Of a stretch of 64,000 nucleotides of DNA, positions 15,971 through 21,653 are shown one piece after another; position 1 is the first letter of the stretch, and the number at the start of each line of letters is the position of its first letter. The translations under genes were made by a program, and so were the position numbers. Origin of the DNA: Frigoribacterium faeni (GTDB lineage Bacteria > Actinomycetota > Actinomycetes > Actinomycetales > Microbacteriaceae); contig NZ_JAAOYW010000003.1 of assembly GCF_011761235.1 (NCBI RefSeq), positions 1-64,000 on the forward strand, read 5' to 3'. A model generated the notes under the pieces. That model saw nothing but the letters and a program-made list of their open reading frames with translations. It searched no databases and was not told the DNA's origin.

Positions 15971-16498
15971 TCAGTCGCCGAGCGTCAGGCTGAGCCGGCG
16001 CAGCAGGTCGGCGAGCCGCTGTTCGTCGCCCTCGCCCAGGTCGGCGAGGAGGCGGCGCTCGGCAGCGAGGAGGCGCTCGATCGCCGCGTCGACGGCCGCG
16101 CCCCCGGCCCGGGTCAGCCGCACGCGGACGCCGCGCCCGTCGAGGGGGTCGGTGCCCCGCTCGACGAGGCCGCGGGCCACGAGGCGGTCGATCCGGTTCG
16201 TCATGGCGCCGCTCGACACGAGCGTCTGCTGCAGCAGGGCCTTGGGGCTCAGCGCGTAGTCGCCGCCGGCCCGGCGCAGGGCCGAGAGCACGTCGAACTC
16301 CCACTGCTCGAGGTCGCTGGCGACGAAGGCGTCGCGTCGGGCGCGGTCGAGGTGCTTGGCGAGGCGGCCGACGCGCGAGAGCACGTGCAGCGGCGCGAAG
16401 TCGAGGTCGGGGCGCTCGTGCGACCAGGCCGCGACGATCCGGTCGACCTCGTCGCTGTGATCGGCGCGCCCTCTTCCAATCTGGGACTCATTGGGCAT
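15971..16498 (-). CDS. MarR family transcriptional regulator
   Basis: A 175-aa winged-helix regulator. LSRVGRLAKHLDRARR starts the dimerisation region; the HTH is seen at ALSPKALLQQTLVSSGAMTNRIDRLVARGLVER (about 85-117), followed by the wing DPLDGRGVRVRLTRAG. MarR proteins usually control efflux or detoxification genes next to them. Here the usual upstream partner is missing because the foreign island begins directly at the start codon (16498). The gene's native promoter may therefore have been replaced. Whether it is still expressed is unknown. Confidence 0.85.
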   Translation of the reverse strand: MPNESQIGRGRADHSDEVDRIVAAWSHERPDLDFAPLHVLSRVGRLAKHLDRARRDAFVASDLEQWEFDVLSALRRAGGDYALSPKALLQQTLVSSGAMTNRIDRLVARGLVERGTDPLDGRGVRVRLTRAGGAAVDAAIERLLAAERRLLADLGEGDEQRLADLLRRLSLTLGD

Positions 16499-16652
16499 GA
16501 CCGCACTCTTTCATACGATGACAGGCCGAGCCGAGACCGCACTTAATGGACTCCTCAATGGCAGTTTTCCGAGAGCCTTCGACAAGGGCGGCTGCAACGA
16601 CTCAGATACCCCGGCCATGATTGCTAGGGTCTTCCTAAAGAGAAGGAAAACG
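16499..16652. other. left junction and leader of the foreign operon
   Basis: AT-richer sequence begins abruptly at the MarR start codon. No integrase gene, insertion sequence or obvious direct repeat was found here. The only clear signals are the extended -10 (16622-16630) and a purine-rich ribosome binding site AAAGAGAAGG just before 16653. Confidence 0.5.
16622..16630 (+). promoter_or_regulatory. extended -10 promoter of the four-gene island
   Basis: TGCTAGGGT combines an extended TGn with a TAnnnT hexamer 22 nt upstream of the methyltransferase ATG, leaving room for the AAGAGAAGG ribosome binding site. No matching -35 was found, which is tolerated by extended -10 promoters. Confidence 0.4.
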
Positions 16653-17468
16653 ATGACGGGGTCTCCCTTACGTTGGGCGGGAAGCAAGAGGAGTCTCTTG
16701 CCGTACATCCGTGCCGCTATGCCCGAAAGTTTCAATTCGTATCTGGAACCATTCATGGGGTCGGCATGTGTATTCTTCGACGTGGCTCCTCAGCGCGCCA
16801 CCCTCTCAGACTTCAACCTCGAACTCGTGGATTTTTTCCGAGTTTTACGAGATAGCCCATCGCGGCTTTATAAATCATTCACCTCGTGGTCAATATCGGG
16901 TGACGACTACTATGATGTTCGCAGCCTTGACCCAGGGGATCTAGATACTGAAGAGCGCGCTGCGCGCTTCCTCTACTTGAATAGGTTCGCGTTTAACGGC
17001 GTTTACAGGACTAATCGTCAAGGTGTGTTCAACGTACCCAAGGGTGCGCGCACAGGCAGAATTCCCTCTCACGAAGAACTACTAGTAGCATCTCGACTCT
17101 TAGTGGGCAAGGAGATCAACCATGCTGACTATCTTGCTACTACGTCAGAAGCGGGGAAGGGTGACTTTGTATATCTGGATCCGCCTTACCGTAATGAGTC
17201 ACGACCGACCTATGGTGAGTATGGCTATGGCTCATTCGGCCTCGAAGAGGATGTGCAATCCCTAGCTGTCGAACTAGACCGCCTTGACCGCCTTGGTGCT
17301 TTCGTAATGCTGTCTTTTAATGACGACTCGGGGTTGGAACAAGTGCTGGATAACTGGTTTACCACGCGTGTCTCACGCCGGCGCAACGTGGCGGGGGTCG
17401 CAAAGGCGAGAACAGAATTGCGGGGAGAAATTCTCTCAACGAACTATGGTCGAGGTAGCAATGCTTAG
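16653..17468 (+). CDS. Dam-like (D12 class) DNA N6-adenine methyltransferase
   Basis: A 271-aa DNA adenine methyltransferase. The SAM-binding segment is PLRWAGSKRSLLPYI (5-19), then YLEPFMGSACVFF (30-42), SDFNLELVDFF (52-62), the D12-typical NGVYRTNRQGVFNVPKG (115-131) and the catalytic motif DPPY (176-179, in FVYLDPPYRN). ATG 16653 is chosen because the family's N-terminus starts there and AAGAGAAGG precedes it; 54 upstream in-frame codons look non-coding. Composition is AT-rich for this genome, and codon 6 is TTA. The stop overlaps the next gene by 8 bp. No restriction enzyme is adjacent. It may protect host DNA from the other island proteins; the target sequence is unknown. Confidence 0.9.
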   Translation: MTGSPLRWAGSKRSLLPYIRAAMPESFNSYLEPFMGSACVFFDVAPQRATLSDFNLELVDFFRVLRDSPSRLYKSFTSWSISGDDYYDVRSLDPGDLDTEERAARFLYLNRFAFNGVYRTNRQGVFNVPKGARTGRIPSHEELLVASRLLVGKEINHADYLATTSEAGKGDFVYLDPPYRNESRPTYGEYGYGSFGLEEDVQSLAVELDRLDRLGAFVMLSFNDDSGLEQVLDNWFTTRVSRRRNVAGVAKARTELRGEILSTNYGRGSNA

Positions 17469-18645
17469 GGTCGCCGTCCTTAGCGACGTCCATGCATTTT
17501 CAAAGGCTCAACTCGAGGAGGGCCAGTCACGCCCTTCGTTTGTAGAAATCTCGAATCCCGATAACCCGGCTAATAACCCGTTTACTGCGCTGCACGAACT
17601 GATTGCGCGGGAGGGGCTCAAGGCCGATGTTCTTGTGTCGGGTGGTGACTTGGGTGATAAAGCATCACCCCAAGCCTTGACCTACGCGTGGAATGAGATT
17701 CGTCGGGTTCGGGCAGCCCTTTCTGCAGATGTGATGCTCGCAGCAACAGGCAATCACGACATGGACTCGCGAGCCATAAACGGATTTGATGCGAGGGGTG
17801 CGCTCCAAGGTCTCGAAGGGTATCCGTTTGAGGATGAGAATTTGCGCGACGCGTATTGGGCCAATAATGCCCTAGTGCAGCACCACGGAGCTTTCCGCTC
17901 CATTCTGCTGAACAGTGCGGCCTACCATGGTTACTCCGATGAATGGCAGCGGGGGCGCGTCTCGGCAAGAACACGCGATTATTTGAGAAACAAGCTGTCA
18001 GCAACGACCGACCCCGGTTTAAACGTCTTGGTGACTCATCATCACCTCTACCCATTGGGCGTCTCGAACCTCGGCGACCACAGTGAGATGCAGGAGGCTC
18101 CTGCTCTCTTGGAGCTGCTGTCGAGCGGCGATTTCGGTTCTTGGCTTGTGATCCACGGCCACCGGCATTGGCCTAGTGTCAGCAGGGCAAGCGGTGGTCA
18201 AGGTGCGCCTATTGTTTTCTCGGCAGGGAGTTTCTCCGCTGTCCTCTATGACGAGATCCAAGACAAAGCGCGCAACCAGTTCTACATCCTCGACATCGAG
18301 GAGAATGATGTCGGCCACAGAGTGCGCGGGACATTTCGCGCCTGGGATTGGATTTCTGATCAAGGTTTTCAACCCGCGCAGGAACGCTCGGGTTTACCTC
18401 ACCTCGGTGGGTTCGGGGGTGCGAAAACCGGTGCTGAGTTAGCCGACGAAGTTGCGGCAATGTACACGGGTTCCGGTCTTCCGTTTATGCAATACAGCGC
18501 CCTTGTCGGCGCGATACCTGACCTGCGTTTTGCCATGCCTTCGGATTTTGAGGCATTCAAAAGCAGATTACGAGACCATCATTCGCTTCGTGTCTTATCA
18601 GATGAGGGCTTGCCGCAACAGGTAGGAAAGGGATCAGCTTCATGA
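17461..18645 (+). CDS. calcineurin-like metallophosphoesterase
   Basis: A 394-aa two-metal phosphoesterase with all five blocks visible: SDVH (8-11), GGDLGD (61-66), TGNHD (96-100), VTHHHL (191-196) and HGHRH (232-236). Members include Mre11/SbcD-type nucleases, cyclic-nucleotide phosphodiesterases and protein phosphatases; the sequence alone does not choose. The ~120-residue C-terminal region (HLGGFGGAKTG... onward) was not recognised and may be a partner-binding domain. The ATG at 17461 has GAGGT about 7 nt upstream and overlaps the methyltransferase stop; an ATG at 17446 is less likely. Its end overlaps the ATPase start (ATGA). A nuclease or nucleotide-cleaving effector role in a defence operon is plausible but inferred. 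Confidence 0.85.
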   Translation: MLRVAVLSDVHAFSKAQLEEGQSRPSFVEISNPDNPANNPFTALHELIAREGLKADVLVSGGDLGDKASPQALTYAWNEIRRVRAALSADVMLAATGNHDMDSRAINGFDARGALQGLEGYPFEDENLRDAYWANNALVQHHGAFRSILLNSAAYHGYSDEWQRGRVSARTRDYLRNKLSATTDPGLNVLVTHHHLYPLGVSNLGDHSEMQEAPALLELLSSGDFGSWLVIHGHRHWPSVSRASGGQGAPIVFSAGSFSAVLYDEIQDKARNQFYILDIEENDVGHRVRGTFRAWDWISDQGFQPAQERSGLPHLGGFGGAKTGAELADEVAAMYTGSGLPFMQYSALVGAIPDLRFAMPSDFEAFKSRLRDHHSLRVLSDEGLPQQVGKGSAS

Positions 18646-20474
18646 CTGCGTCCACCACGTCGGACTTCCTCGCGACTGCCAACGCGAGATTTCGGTCGCC
18701 GACCACGATAGCTCGAAGTTTTATTCCCCCGGAGCAATTTCGTCGTCTCGCCAAGCCATCTCACACGGTCATGGTCGGGCCGAGGGGGAGTGGAAAGACG
18801 ACGTTGCTTAAGATGCTAACTCCGGAGGCTCTGGCGGAGGCAGCTCACAGCAAGCGCTTTCGCCTTGAGTCTGGTTTGCAATTTACTGGAATATTCATTC
18901 CTTCAGATATAGCATGGAGTAAACAGCTTCAGACGTATTCGAAATGGAACTTACCGGCAGAACTGTCGAGTGAGATATTTGAGGCCTCTTTTACGACTTC
19001 CGTCTTGCGCAGCTTTGCTGCTGCGCTCCATGATCGATTCACTCGACCCGTGCCGGCCACTTGGCTGGGCATTCAGCGCGTCACACTCGATCCTGGTGCC
19101 GAGTCGCAGTTGGCTCAAGCCCTAGCTGATCTTTGGTCCCTCAATTTACGTATACCTAGCCTGCTAGGGCTTAAGGCGGCTACTGCTGAGAGAATCGTCG
19201 ACCTTGGTCGTATGGCCGCGCAACTTCATCGAACCGCGGCGACCGATGTAGTCGATGAGCGTCTCTTGTTGGGGCCCCTCGTTCCCCAACTGACTCTGGC
19301 GCTTGACACGCTCGAGGCACTCGTGCCGCAGGTGGCGGGGGAAAAGTGGGGGCTTCTATTTGACGAGCTTGAATTAGCTCCGCCGGAGACACGAAAGTCA
19401 CTCATTGCGTCCATGAGGAGCGTCGATGAGAGGTTGATATTTAAGTTGGCCATCGCCCCTTACGCCTCAGATCTGTCTGAACTCGTTTCGGCCGTCGCGG
19501 CAATGCCCGGCCATGATCACGAAGAGATCTGGCTTAGCTACGGACACAAAGCACAGGCCATGGAGTTCAGTTATGAACTCATGCGAGCCTTAGTGCGTGA
19601 CAGATATGGGCAAGCTGTTTCGTTGGAGTCCCTCCTTGGTAGTGCAGTATTCCCGCTAGATGATGAGGGGCTTGAATCGGCTGATGGGGTAAGTGGCACG
19701 CAGGAGGAGTTCGTTCGAGACTTGCATACGAGTGACAAGACTTTTCGAGCTTATGTTGCGCGGGTCGCAGGGGGAATCGAAGAACTTCTTTCGAGTACGG
19801 GACAAAAGCGGTCCCAGAACCTCCGGAAGGTCTTGCCACTTGTGATCGTTCGCGTGGCTTTTCGAACCCCAGATAATTCTGATGCCGCTCGCGGCTCTCG
19901 GCGCACGCGTACCCGCAAGAACCCTTATATCTACTCGGGTATGACTGCGCTCTCAACGTTACTGGAAGGAAATCCTCGATGGATTATCGGCGTGCTATCA
20001 ACGCTGTTTGCCGAGATGCCAAGTCGGGTTTCAAGTTCTGAACAAAATGCTGAGATAGCTCGAACTCGGAATGCCTTCCGGGCAATGCTCTCGACCATTC
20101 CCGTACCAAATTCAGTTGATACGCGGCGAGGTCTTCTCTCCCTGATTAATAGCGTGGGTGAAACCTTCAGAGAGTCAGTGATTATCGAACCCTTCAACCC
20201 AGACCCAGTGGGAAGTTTTATCGTTGACAACAATGCTTCTGCAGCCCTGATCGAAGCTCTGGGGAGCGCAGTTAATGCTGGGGCTATCGTTTATGTTCCT
20301 GATAGCGCGGGGGCGGGGCTCCTAAGCTCCATGAAAGGAAAGCGTTTTAGATTGAGTTACTTGCTGGCAACTCAGTATCAGCTTCCACTACGACTCGAAC
20401 GCAGCACATCACTGCGAACGATACTGACCCAATCAAACAAACAGACGCCTCTTGAGTTGTTTACTGATGAGTAG
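18642..20474 (+). CDS. large P-loop ATPase of the island (ORC/AAA- or STAND-like)
   Basis: A 610-aa protein with Walker A GPRGSGKT (46-53) inside a THTVMVGPRGSGKTTLLKML-like start and Walker B WGLLFDELE (236-244). The long spacing between these motifs and the N-terminal pattern resemble ORC/CDC6-like or KAP/STAND-type AAA ATPases found in defence loci, but I cannot name a family. The C-terminal half (about 290-610) has no recognised catalytic motif; it is rich in helices and has a basic patch RGSRRTRTRKN near 415. No membrane segments. The start overlaps the phosphoesterase stop and the stop overlaps the next gene by 8 bp. TTA leucine codons occur (e.g. residue 104). It could sense or translocate invading DNA for the phosphoesterase. 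Confidence 0.75.
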   Translation: MTASTTSDFLATANARFRSPTTIARSFIPPEQFRRLAKPSHTVMVGPRGSGKTTLLKMLTPEALAEAAHSKRFRLESGLQFTGIFIPSDIAWSKQLQTYSKWNLPAELSSEIFEASFTTSVLRSFAAALHDRFTRPVPATWLGIQRVTLDPGAESQLAQALADLWSLNLRIPSLLGLKAATAERIVDLGRMAAQLHRTAATDVVDERLLLGPLVPQLTLALDTLEALVPQVAGEKWGLLFDELELAPPETRKSLIASMRSVDERLIFKLAIAPYASDLSELVSAVAAMPGHDHEEIWLSYGHKAQAMEFSYELMRALVRDRYGQAVSLESLLGSAVFPLDDEGLESADGVSGTQEEFVRDLHTSDKTFRAYVARVAGGIEELLSSTGQKRSQNLRKVLPLVIVRVAFRTPDNSDAARGSRRTRTRKNPYIYSGMTALSTLLEGNPRWIIGVLSTLFAEMPSRVSSSEQNAEIARTRNAFRAMLSTIPVPNSVDTRRGLLSLINSVGETFRESVIIEPFNPDPVGSFIVDNNASAALIEALGSAVNAGAIVYVPDSAGAGLLSSMKGKRFRLSYLLATQYQLPLRLERSTSLRTILTQSNKQTPLELFTDE

Positions 20475-21378
20475 GCCAATGAGGGTCCGGAGTCTGCCGA
20501 TGGCTGAGCGATATGATCTCCTTATTACAAGTGTTGGTTACGAGGCGCGAAGCAGGTACATCGCTGAGATCGTCGGTACCGTTGCAGCACGCAAGGTGGC
20601 CTTTAACTTTGACAGTCCAGGCGTCTTGAGTTTCGACCAAAACCTGCGTGTAGTTCGTGCACTTGGCTTCGAGGTTAGGCCGATCGATGATCAGTTCGCG
20701 GGCGCCCTTCGGCGTCTCTTAGAAGACGCGACGGACCAAGGTGTCCGAGCGATTGGGATAGATATTTCCAGCCTTACTAAATTCCACATTGCGGAGGTTG
20801 TTGATGTGTTCCATGAATCTAATCTTGAGTTGAGTGTTGATTTTCTCTACGCCCCGGCAAGTAGTGCTTCGTGGGTTCCCGTCGATGCCCCAATACAATA
20901 TGCCGAACCAATCCATCCTGCGTTTGCCTCTTGGACGGATGACCCGCTCCTTCCACTCGTGGCCGTCATCGGGACGGGCGCGGAGGCTAATTTGGCCCTG
21001 GGCGTAGCTGAGCAACTTGACGTGTCGGGTGTTTATGCTTTTAGCCCCTCCGGCGCGGATGCCGAGTTTGACAGAATCAGTGCGGATGCCAATCACGATT
21101 TTTTCCTAGCAAACTATGTCGTGCGATCATCTACGTACGACCTCCTTGCTCCGTTTGAATTATTTTCACGTCTAGAGTCGCTTCTGTACGGGCTGACCGC
21201 TGAGACCCGCATAGCTCTCGTGCCTCTCGGGCCGAAAATATTCGCGCTGTGCTCTCTTCTGGCCTCTCTCGCTTCCGGGCGAGCGGCCACCGTCTGGAGA
21301 TTCTCATTTGGGGTGGCAGAAAGGCCCGCGGACGTACAAGCTGCCGGCGTGGTCGTGTCACTTCGAGTTACTTGGTAA
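20467..21378 (+). CDS. unrecognised two-lobed Rossmann-like protein of the island
   Basis: A protein of 303 aa that I do not recognise. It has two sets of alternating hydrophobic strands and helices: lobe 1 YDLLITSVGYEARSRYI (16-32), VRAIGIDISSLTKFHIAEV and LSVDFLYAP; lobe 2 LVAVIGTGAEANLAL, SGVYAFSPSG and IALVPLGPKIFALCSLLAS. The Ser/Gly-rich turns at strand ends (TSVGYEARS, DISSLTK, GTGAEAN) look like nucleotide- or small-ligand-binding loops, possibly CARF-like, but this is conjecture. The ATG at 20467 overlaps the ATPase stop (ATGAGTAG). Alternatives are ATG 20479 or 20501, the latter with GGAG upstream. TTA codons are used. It is always-coupled-looking with the ATPase. Confidence 0.6.
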   Translation: MSRPMRVRSLPMAERYDLLITSVGYEARSRYIAEIVGTVAARKVAFNFDSPGVLSFDQNLRVVRALGFEVRPIDDQFAGALRRLLEDATDQGVRAIGIDISSLTKFHIAEVVDVFHESNLELSVDFLYAPASSASWVPVDAPIQYAEPIHPAFASWTDDPLLPLVAVIGTGAEANLALGVAEQLDVSGVYAFSPSGADAEFDRISADANHDFFLANYVVRSSTYDLLAPFELFSRLESLLYGLTAETRIALVPLGPKIFALCSLLASLASGRAATVWRFSFGVAERPADVQAAGVVVSLRVTW

Positions 21379-21547
21379 ATTCGCGCCTTCTTGGCTTTCT
21401 GGCTGCACTGGTTGGTGCCGATGTCTCGCCCGCGAGGAGATGTAGCCTGCGTCTCAGCCAGATGGTCTCCCCGCAGTCCGCCCTGGTGCTTAGGCTCCCA
21501 GGTGCCCGGAGGTGTCTGCCACAATCATCATTGCGCGATTAGCGCGG
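21379..21547. other. right junction of the island, upstream of tRNA-Gln
   Basis: Composition returns to high GC within about 50 bp. No integrase, transposase or clear direct repeat of the tRNA is visible. A TAGCCT hexamer at about 21445 and CACAAT at 21520-21525 might be promoter -10 elements, the latter for tRNA-Gln, but neither has a convincing -35. Confidence 0.35.
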
Positions 21548-21619
21548 TCCGCCATGGTGTAACGGCAGCACGACAGCCTTTGGAGCTGTTAGGTCCAGGT
21601 TCGAATCCTGGTGGCGGAG
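21548..21619 (+). tRNA. tRNA-Gln (anticodon UUG)
   Basis: A 72-nt cloverleaf: acceptor arms TCCGCCA/TGGCGGA, anticodon stem ACAGC/GCTGT with loop CTTTGGA giving anticodon TTG (reads CAA), T-arm CCAGG-TTCGAAT-CCTGG, discriminator G. CCA is not encoded. It lies just before DUF4126 and glmU, a common actinobacterial arrangement, and marks the core side of the island's right edge. Confidence 0.95.
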
Positions 21620-21653
21620 CCGGCCGATCCGGCCCCCGGGCCGCCCGCGTCGA

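Follow-up and report, generated by a model that had tools for sequence, protein, structure and literature searches.

What does a compact, AT-rich operon of four genes do in an otherwise GC-rich stretch of the genome of Frigoribacterium faeni? The operon lies within the first 64,000 nucleotides of contig NZ_JAAOYW010000003.1 (the window, by which we mean this whole stretch), and an earlier note, made from the sequence alone, had taken it for a foreign candidate defence system consisting of an adenine methyltransferase, a metallophosphoesterase, a P-loop ATPase and an unknown Rossmann-like protein. Our analysis confirms that observation and partly supports the interpretation placed on it. Judging from sequence and structure comparisons, we consider it somewhat probable (roughly 0.58) that the genes form a methylation-guarded immune operon, in which a core of the ATPase and a CARF protein would sense unmarked DNA and trigger the phosphoesterase.

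The unit comprises four intact plus-strand frames, each overlapping the next, between a MarR-type gene and tRNA-Gln. The stop codon of the methylase gene (17466-17468) overlaps the phosphoesterase gene (ATG at 17461), the phosphoesterase stop (18643-18645) overlaps the ATPase gene (ATG at 18642), and the ATPase stop (20472-20474) overlaps the CARF gene (ATG at 20467), just as described for a single unit in the earlier note. The first gene (16617..17468, plus strand) encodes a Dam-type (D12, N6-adenine) DNA methyltransferase (PF02086, 4.9e-39; TIGR00571 dam, 2.4e-51), which is assigned to the Dam family by its 175 bits against the TIGR00571 cut-off of 114.85. Its frame is open from 16491; the start near 16499 that had been proposed, overlapping the MarR gene, is probably too early, since homologues align from about 16617 or 16653. 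The DPPY motif is invariant in 48 methylase sequences, and the best solved relatives of the family profile are DpnM (1.4e-81) and E. coli Dam (about 1e-65), both GATC enzymes. The cassette methylase is the sole Dam in the window's genome, and the mark that it makes is most likely GATC, as its relatives suggest.

The second gene (17461..18645, plus strand) encodes a calcineurin-like metallophosphoesterase (PF00149, 6.7e-9; PF24408, 1.5e-9), with a C-terminal winged helix at about 18409-18573 on the same strand (PF24408). Residues D9, H11, G62-D63, G97-N98-H99-D100, H193, G233-H234 and H236 are invariant in 68 phosphoesterase sequences, and the protein is a predicted effector, in agreement with the earlier proposal. 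At one locus the CARF gene is immediately followed by a second phosphoesterase gene (L073:11783-12655, matching the family at 5e-35). The third protein (18642..20474, plus strand) is an ORC/Cdc6-like AAA+ ATPase. It matches PF24389 at 8.2e-98 over profile positions 3-571 of 571, above the cut-off and with both Walker motifs (A at about 18777-18800, B at about 19362-19373, plus strand), and is accordingly a member of this family; the Walker residues are invariant in 67 ATPase sequences. With its structure model (predicted local distance difference test score, pLDDT, 90.3), Foldseek returned ORC4 first (5.5e-4), then other ORC subunits and Cdc6/Orc1; RdrA and BrxC stood lower among the matches, and the global template modelling (TM) scores were low. 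The large P-loop ATPase recognised before is thus given a family, and nothing shows the movement along DNA that had been ascribed to it. Damaged copies occur elsewhere, with the ATPase split over two frames (L115:6939-8949) or carrying a TAA (L199:6094-8103).

The fourth protein (20467..21378, plus strand) had been described as Rossmann-like and possibly ligand-binding. Its Rossmann-like nature stands, and it is no longer unknown: the CARF6 model of PADLOC covers residues 18-307 of the 308-residue frame at 8.7e-45, which together with Foldseek assigns it the CARF Rossmann-like fold, and no Pfam family matched it. An AlphaFold model built with 69 relatives had a mean pLDDT of 95.7. Among the 50 Foldseek matches listed, all those with probability 1.00 are Csm6, Cam1 or Csa3, at modest E-values (2e-4 to about 1e-2). 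SAVED-CHAT and Cap5 gave the highest query TM-scores (0.40); an unrelated D-cysteine desulfhydrase ranks second, with probability 0.91. An hhalign comparison of the two halves was weak (probability 14%), so the two-lobe description rests on the model and the SAVED-like matches. The protein is best described as a two-lobed CARF protein and, by prediction, a sensor or regulator. Its residue R28 is kept in 70 of 74 CARF proteins from phosphoesterase-type systems, and D99, S/T101, Y128 and K257 in 74/74. All five are kept in 12/12 CARF proteins whose systems use a PRTase or kinase effector and in 12/12 further proteins, including those of both loci with a C5-cytosine methylase.

Matches of five ATPases in a scan of genome contigs gave 76 loci. 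In 68 of them the genes for phosphoesterase, ATPase and CARF stand in this order, one after another on one strand, and a D12 methylase lies directly upstream of the trio in 48 of these 68; gaps between cassette genes are near zero (medians 1.5, -4 and -4). The loci lacking the ordered trio have a P-loop match only (L108-L110) or are cut off or incomplete (L078, L087, L102, L105, L106). The recurrence of the last three genes in order is more than chance, and the co-occurrence survey called for in the earlier note found the ATPase and the last protein together with the phosphoesterase, in most cases also with the methylase, across phyla. The 68 trio loci fall into Pseudomonadota (37), Bacteroidota (17), Actinomycetota (6, counting L037) and Acidobacteriota (4), with one each in Planctomycetota, Verrucomicrobiota, Gemmatimonadota and SAR324. 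One Nitrosomonadales-binned contig (L066/L068) carries a near-copy of an Alteromonadaceae cassette, which suggests a binning error. Plasmids yielded ATPase plus CARF matches in 5 of 72,556 records. Four of these five loci were inspected; three have all four genes, and the one from Pseudoalteromonas has no methylase (the plasmid matches left out of inspection were H3, from the ATPase plus CARF set, H12, H14 and H17).

Full-length ATPase relatives are rare. They were found in 3 of 394 genomes in a sample of the class (70 genomes gave a match, namely the 3 full-length ones, 1 contig-end fragment and otherwise the P-loop region at 17-34 bits) and in 3 of 296 genomes in the phylum of G440. Two orders gave 11 such genomes of 375 (order of G405) and 7 of 371 (order of G420). 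Each of these samples contains its own centre (G000, G440, G405 and G420), so that the fractions are not rates. No relatives were seen in one scan of viral contigs or in phage records, nor in E. coli genomes searched with the DNA of one Vibrio cassette.

Around this core the other components vary. Beside ATPase relatives, the place of the phosphoesterase is taken by PRTase-CE at several loci and by HD-CE at L196, and a protein kinase is fused to the ATPase N terminus at L161 (7943-10504) and L160 (7560-11270, with a score under the Pfam cut-off); an N4/N6-type methylase lies upstream of both fusions. The phosphoesterase is one of several interchangeable effectors. The constant part is the ATPase with the CARF protein, and at L160 kinase, ATPase and CARF form one frame of 1236 residues. 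The methylases vary as well, comprising the Dam type, a longer D12 enzyme (L038, L040, L041), an N4/N6 type with TSPPY, an N6 type with NPPF/NPPY and a C5-cytosine type (L196, L202). A methylase adjoins the PRTase-ATPase-CARF genes at 19 of 19 evaluable loci (L111, L112, L114-L120, L159, L188, L189, L193, L195, L197-L199, L201, L202). Some methylase profiles were built from matches later listed (L111, L114, L116-L118; L112, L119, L120; L038, L040, L041); Pfam independently supports the methylases of L040, L111, L112, L161, L193, L195, L196, L197, L201 and L202, and those of L114 and L119 are named in the record annotation. At L163 PRTase-CE occurs with no ATPase, at L162 the ATPase match is partial and both methylase and CARF are missing, and a contig end truncates L192. 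This interchangeability suggests that the chemistry of the mark does not matter and that its absence on foreign DNA probably does.

Two kinds of neighbour were noted at PRTase-type cassettes. On plasmids of rhizobia they adjoin thyX, the gene of a flavin-dependent thymidylate synthase (L114:3680-4591 and L117:10261-11214, annotated; L115:3688-4603, recognised by eye), and this neighbour may be related to nucleotide loss caused by the effector. Downstream of the cassette at L159 (11480-13163) lie two frames, one ParB-like (recognised by eye) and one that matches a C5-methylase profile at 6.2e-48.

The cassettes that have no methylase of their own were the most informative on its role. Another Dam was present in the host of 13 of 14 phosphoesterase-type cassettes without a methylase, as against 5 of 50 methylase-bearing ones. 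The initial methylase-less set had 11 members (L042, L046, L053, L065, L066, L068, L069, L072, L081, L082, L088), and 10 of their hosts had a Dam elsewhere, at 277-314 bits; three cassettes found later agreed (3/3). No methylase of five profiled classes was found in the stretches around the methylase-less loci, and at L066 and L068 the 495 and 382 bases visible upstream are enough to show a partial methylase. The 50 methylase-bearing hosts include those of L105 and L106, which keep their methylase, although that of L106 (6935-7783) is broken by an in-frame TAG, and this host has another Dam. Loci with the upstream side cut off (L044, L078, L087, L102) and one known only from a plasmid (L034) stood outside the comparison. 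Loci with a Dam-type methylase elsewhere in the locus (L080, L090, L096, L100, L104) were kept apart, as were those with the different D12 enzyme (L038, L040, L041), whose genomes have no Dam-family match; in the hosts of L080 and L100 a further Dam scored over the cut-off. Mapped on the ATPase tree, the lack of a methylase requires four changes, that is, four independent losses, and across the four independent pairs host Dam pointed in the same direction in nearly every random pairing, and in every one when 240 bits were required.

SeqA, which accompanies housekeeping Dam, was present in 7 of the 11 hosts whose cassette lacks a methylase. None of the other hosts tested had it, neither the 11 with a methylase-bearing cassette nor the 5 whose methylase lies elsewhere in the locus nor the 3 with the longer D12 enzyme. 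In the Vibrio host, the genes around Dam look by eye like aroB, damX and rpe. The strong Dam in the hosts of L042 and L100 adjoins a DUF6996-DUF6997-DUF7226 protein (L165:4047-5429, L168:1525-2811), perhaps the restriction partner of a GATC methylase. For the order of G405, which includes the genome of L072, Vibrio owensii, we set beforehand the prediction that phosphoesterase-type cassettes would lack a methylase and other types would have one. The ATPase was found at 1e-25 in the 11 genomes of that order counted above. A methylase accompanied 0 of 6 phosphoesterase-type cassettes (L072, L081 and L088, known before, and L190, L191 and L194, new), and a non-Dam methylase accompanied 4 of 4 evaluable PRTase-type cassettes (L188, L189, L193, L195); a Dam scoring 282-319 bits was present in 8 of 8 new hosts. 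The single new phosphoesterase-type cassette in the order of G420 (L200) carries a methylase, which is the only Dam of that host. Host Dam thus appears to replace the Dam-type enzyme in particular, which points to GATC, and the phosphoesterase branch appears to be tied to a GATC mark. These comparisons lend good support to a self-marking role of methylation, as first suggested for the Dam-like enzyme, with the amendment that other methylase classes or a host Dam can take its place elsewhere.

Taken together, the operon would work as follows. The Dam-type enzyme would mark the cell's own DNA, most likely at GATC, and the ORC/Cdc6-like ATPase and the two-lobed CARF protein would form a core surveying DNA. 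The ATPase would assemble on invading DNA that lacks the mark and, together with the CARF protein acting as sensor or gate, would switch on the metallophosphoesterase, which could hydrolyse a nucleotide or a nucleotide signal and so stop phage growth and probably that of the cell too. The persistence of methylase-less cassettes makes it probable that the mark is read by the ATPase, the CARF protein or the effector rather than by the methylase. The conserved unit, its intact active sites, the swappable effectors and methylases and the absence of a methylase where the host has a Dam are well supported by the comparisons; the assignment to defence-type genes is supported. We infer that the mark protects self, and likewise the reader of the mark, the ligand of the CARF pocket, the substrate of the phosphoesterase and the abortive outcome.

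Several points weigh against this reading. The literature searched yielded no phage assay of any member. The GATC motif of the cassette enzyme would follow from its relatives, and GATC is not rare in the window (positions 1-64,000), where 315 sites were seen against 158 expected from base content; no avoidance and hence no sign of long-standing counter-selection was seen there. A Pfam scan of the four genes revealed no nucleotide cyclase that would account for a CARF ligand. As for host Dam, no Dam was found in the genome of methylase-less L068 (a 1.3-Mb bin whose contig resembles L066), and the five methylase-bearing hosts with a second Dam over the cut-off are those of L052 (barely), L076, L101, L105 and L106, only that of L101 being strong (at least 240 bits). 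Fisher's exact test favours the link to host Dam (p = 3.3e-7 for 10/11 against 5/50, and 1.3e-9 for strong Dams) but ignores kinship; the independent losses number only four, for which a sign test gave p = 0.125, below the reach of significance. TIR, SIR2, Schlafen, CHAT and nuclease genes adjoin cassettes in several plasmid loci, a pattern noted with no background comparison. Finally, the profile DS9_1 of a known defence system scores 38.5 bits with the window phosphoesterase and 78.8 bits with that of L072 (3.9e-22) against a cut-off of 420, and the DS8 score is also far below its cut-off.

The operon is an acquisition at its present site. Similarity to genus relatives stops on the MarR side at 16453-16472 and resumes on the tRNA side at 21508-21542, which places the inserted stretch at 16473..21507. 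Its left neighbour is the MarR-type regulator (15971..16498, minus strand; so named in the earlier note), which served as anchor in relatives and had matches in 36 of 40 genomes, counting that of the window; on the right lies tRNA-Gln(TTG) (21548..21621, plus strand). tRNA-Gln was close beside MarR, and the operon absent, in all 18 relatives scanned for tRNAs (15 of the genus and 3 of the family); the nearest ones (L122, L123, L124) have roughly 220-290 bases in its place. Composition bears out the AT-richness and TTA codons claimed before. The guanine-plus-cytosine (GC) fraction of the operon genes is 0.52-0.55, that of six neighbouring genes 0.70-0.79, with 0.53-0.58 against 0.95-0.98 at third codon positions (GC3); the operon genes contain 3, 5, 5 and 2 TTA codons and the six neighbours 0. 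Along the sequence the GC fraction is 0.52-0.56 within the operon and 0.70-0.79 beyond, with mixed windows at both edges. There is no integrase among the four genes, and promoter and terminator scans gave results at chance level.

Other explanations were weighed against the methylation-guarded operon. A broader one, to which we give somewhat less than even odds, sees a modular platform. One ATPase-CARF core would read the absence of whatever methyl mark its host uses (Dam, other N6-adenine, N4/N6 or C5-cytosine) and fire interchangeable effectors (phosphoesterase, phosphoribosyltransferase, HD hydrolase or kinase), the phosphoesterase branch being wired to GATC and relying on host Dam where present. 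A variant of restriction-modification, in which the phosphoesterase would be a Mre11/SbcD-like nuclease loaded by the ATPase and cutting unmethylated DNA, appears unlikely. The methylase pattern is that of restriction-modification, the winged helix could bind DNA, and Mre11/SbcD chains are weak matches of the phosphoesterase profile (3e-4 to 4e-3); however, Lmo2642, Rv0805, the 2zo9 phosphohydrolase and SMPDL3A, which we take to be cyclic-nucleotide or nucleotide enzymes, match this profile better, and the PRTase, HD and kinase effectors of ATPase-CARF relatives are not expected to cut DNA. Because the effector slot holds predicted nucleotide-acting enzymes and a kinase, the phosphoesterase more likely acts on nucleotides as an effector than cuts DNA as a nuclease.

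Quite improbable in our view is an epigenetic or addiction module with no immune role, in which methylation would restrain the other three genes and the unit would maintain itself. Loss of methylation would be harmful here too, so the host-Dam pattern fits, as do the cassettes on plasmids and the recent insertion in the window; against this, effectors of such types have been predicted or shown to act in immunity, and the defence-type neighbours on several plasmids, again uncompared with background, argue the same way. Least probable of all is an alarm in which the chromosome is tagged and methylated nucleotides freed by phage breakdown are sensed by the CARF pocket and fire the effector; it too predicts replacement by host Dam and accords with five CARF residues nearly constant across variants, but these residues are unchanged at L196 and L202 despite their C5-cytosine methylases, which makes a single methyl-base ligand unlikely.

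No named system in PADLOC-DB 2.0.0 or NCBIfam 20 matched the operon, in line with the earlier note, and no paper in the literature searched was recognised as describing the four-gene unit or the link to host Dam; the term CARF6 was not met among the papers listed, and of the CE names just unrelated "HD-CE" strings occurred among those listed. The portions of PMC4012209, PMC8195603 and PMC7159879 available to us do not describe the unit. It resembles type II restriction-modification (DpnM/DpnII, GATC) in that its methylase family is closest to DpnM among solved structures; it differs in having an ATPase, a CARF protein and a phosphoesterase, and no endonuclease was recognised, the Pfam, PADLOC and NCBIfam scans of the four proteins giving no significant nuclease family and a weak Cas6b match (0.087). 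With the CARF/SAVED effectors of type III CRISPR (clustered regularly interspaced short palindromic repeats) and of cyclic-oligonucleotide-based anti-phage signalling systems (CBASS) it shares the CARF fold. In contrast to these, the CARF protein of the window stands alone, or is fused to the ATPase at L160, and CD-NTase and Cas10 are absent from the four proteins, cyclases elsewhere in the genome not having been searched for. The mad gene set of the methylation-associated defence system (MADS) is lacking, the ATPase P-loop giving matches of 32 residues each to mad8 (1.3e-5) and mad3 (0.021).

Predicted nucleotide-targeting conflict systems have the ATPase and effector families in common with our loci, the Pfam names being ORC-CDC6-like (PF24389), PRTase-CE (PF24390), HD-CE (PF24391) and wHTH-Calcineurin_assc (PF24408). 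These families reportedly go back to Nicastro et al. 2023, who are said to have named Calcineurin-CE, HD-CE and PRTase-CE as predicted nucleotide-degrading effectors and may already list such ATPase-effector pairs. The CARF structure, the swapping of methylases and the link to host Dam come from the present analysis. DS-8 and DS-9 have a homologous metallophosphoesterase domain, fused in DS-8 to a NACHT P-loop NTPase, and the catalytic residues of their metallophosphatases are essential for anti-phage defence; the part of this source available to us mentions neither a methylase nor a CARF protein (PMC13092281), both of which are present in the window unit. Bacteriophage exclusion (BREX), according to the available part of its description, combines methylation-based self-marking with an ATPase of the ORC/Cdc6 clade, BrxC (PMC12839542). 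The window unit shares methyl self-marking and an ORC/Cdc6-type ATPase with it, but uses a small Dam-type methylase that the host can supply, together with a CARF protein, and PglZ, by which BREX is recognised, was not found in any of the four proteins in a Pfam scan. As a rule, immunity guided by DNA modification depends on a nuclease or on BREX. In this operon methylation status appears to be coupled, through a CARF-type sensor and an ORC/Cdc6-like ATPase, to effectors that do not necessarily cut DNA. That the methylase is missing in Dam-bearing hosts provides a candidate motif, GATC, and a testable trigger, and the operon could reveal a role for CARF proteins outside CRISPR and CBASS.

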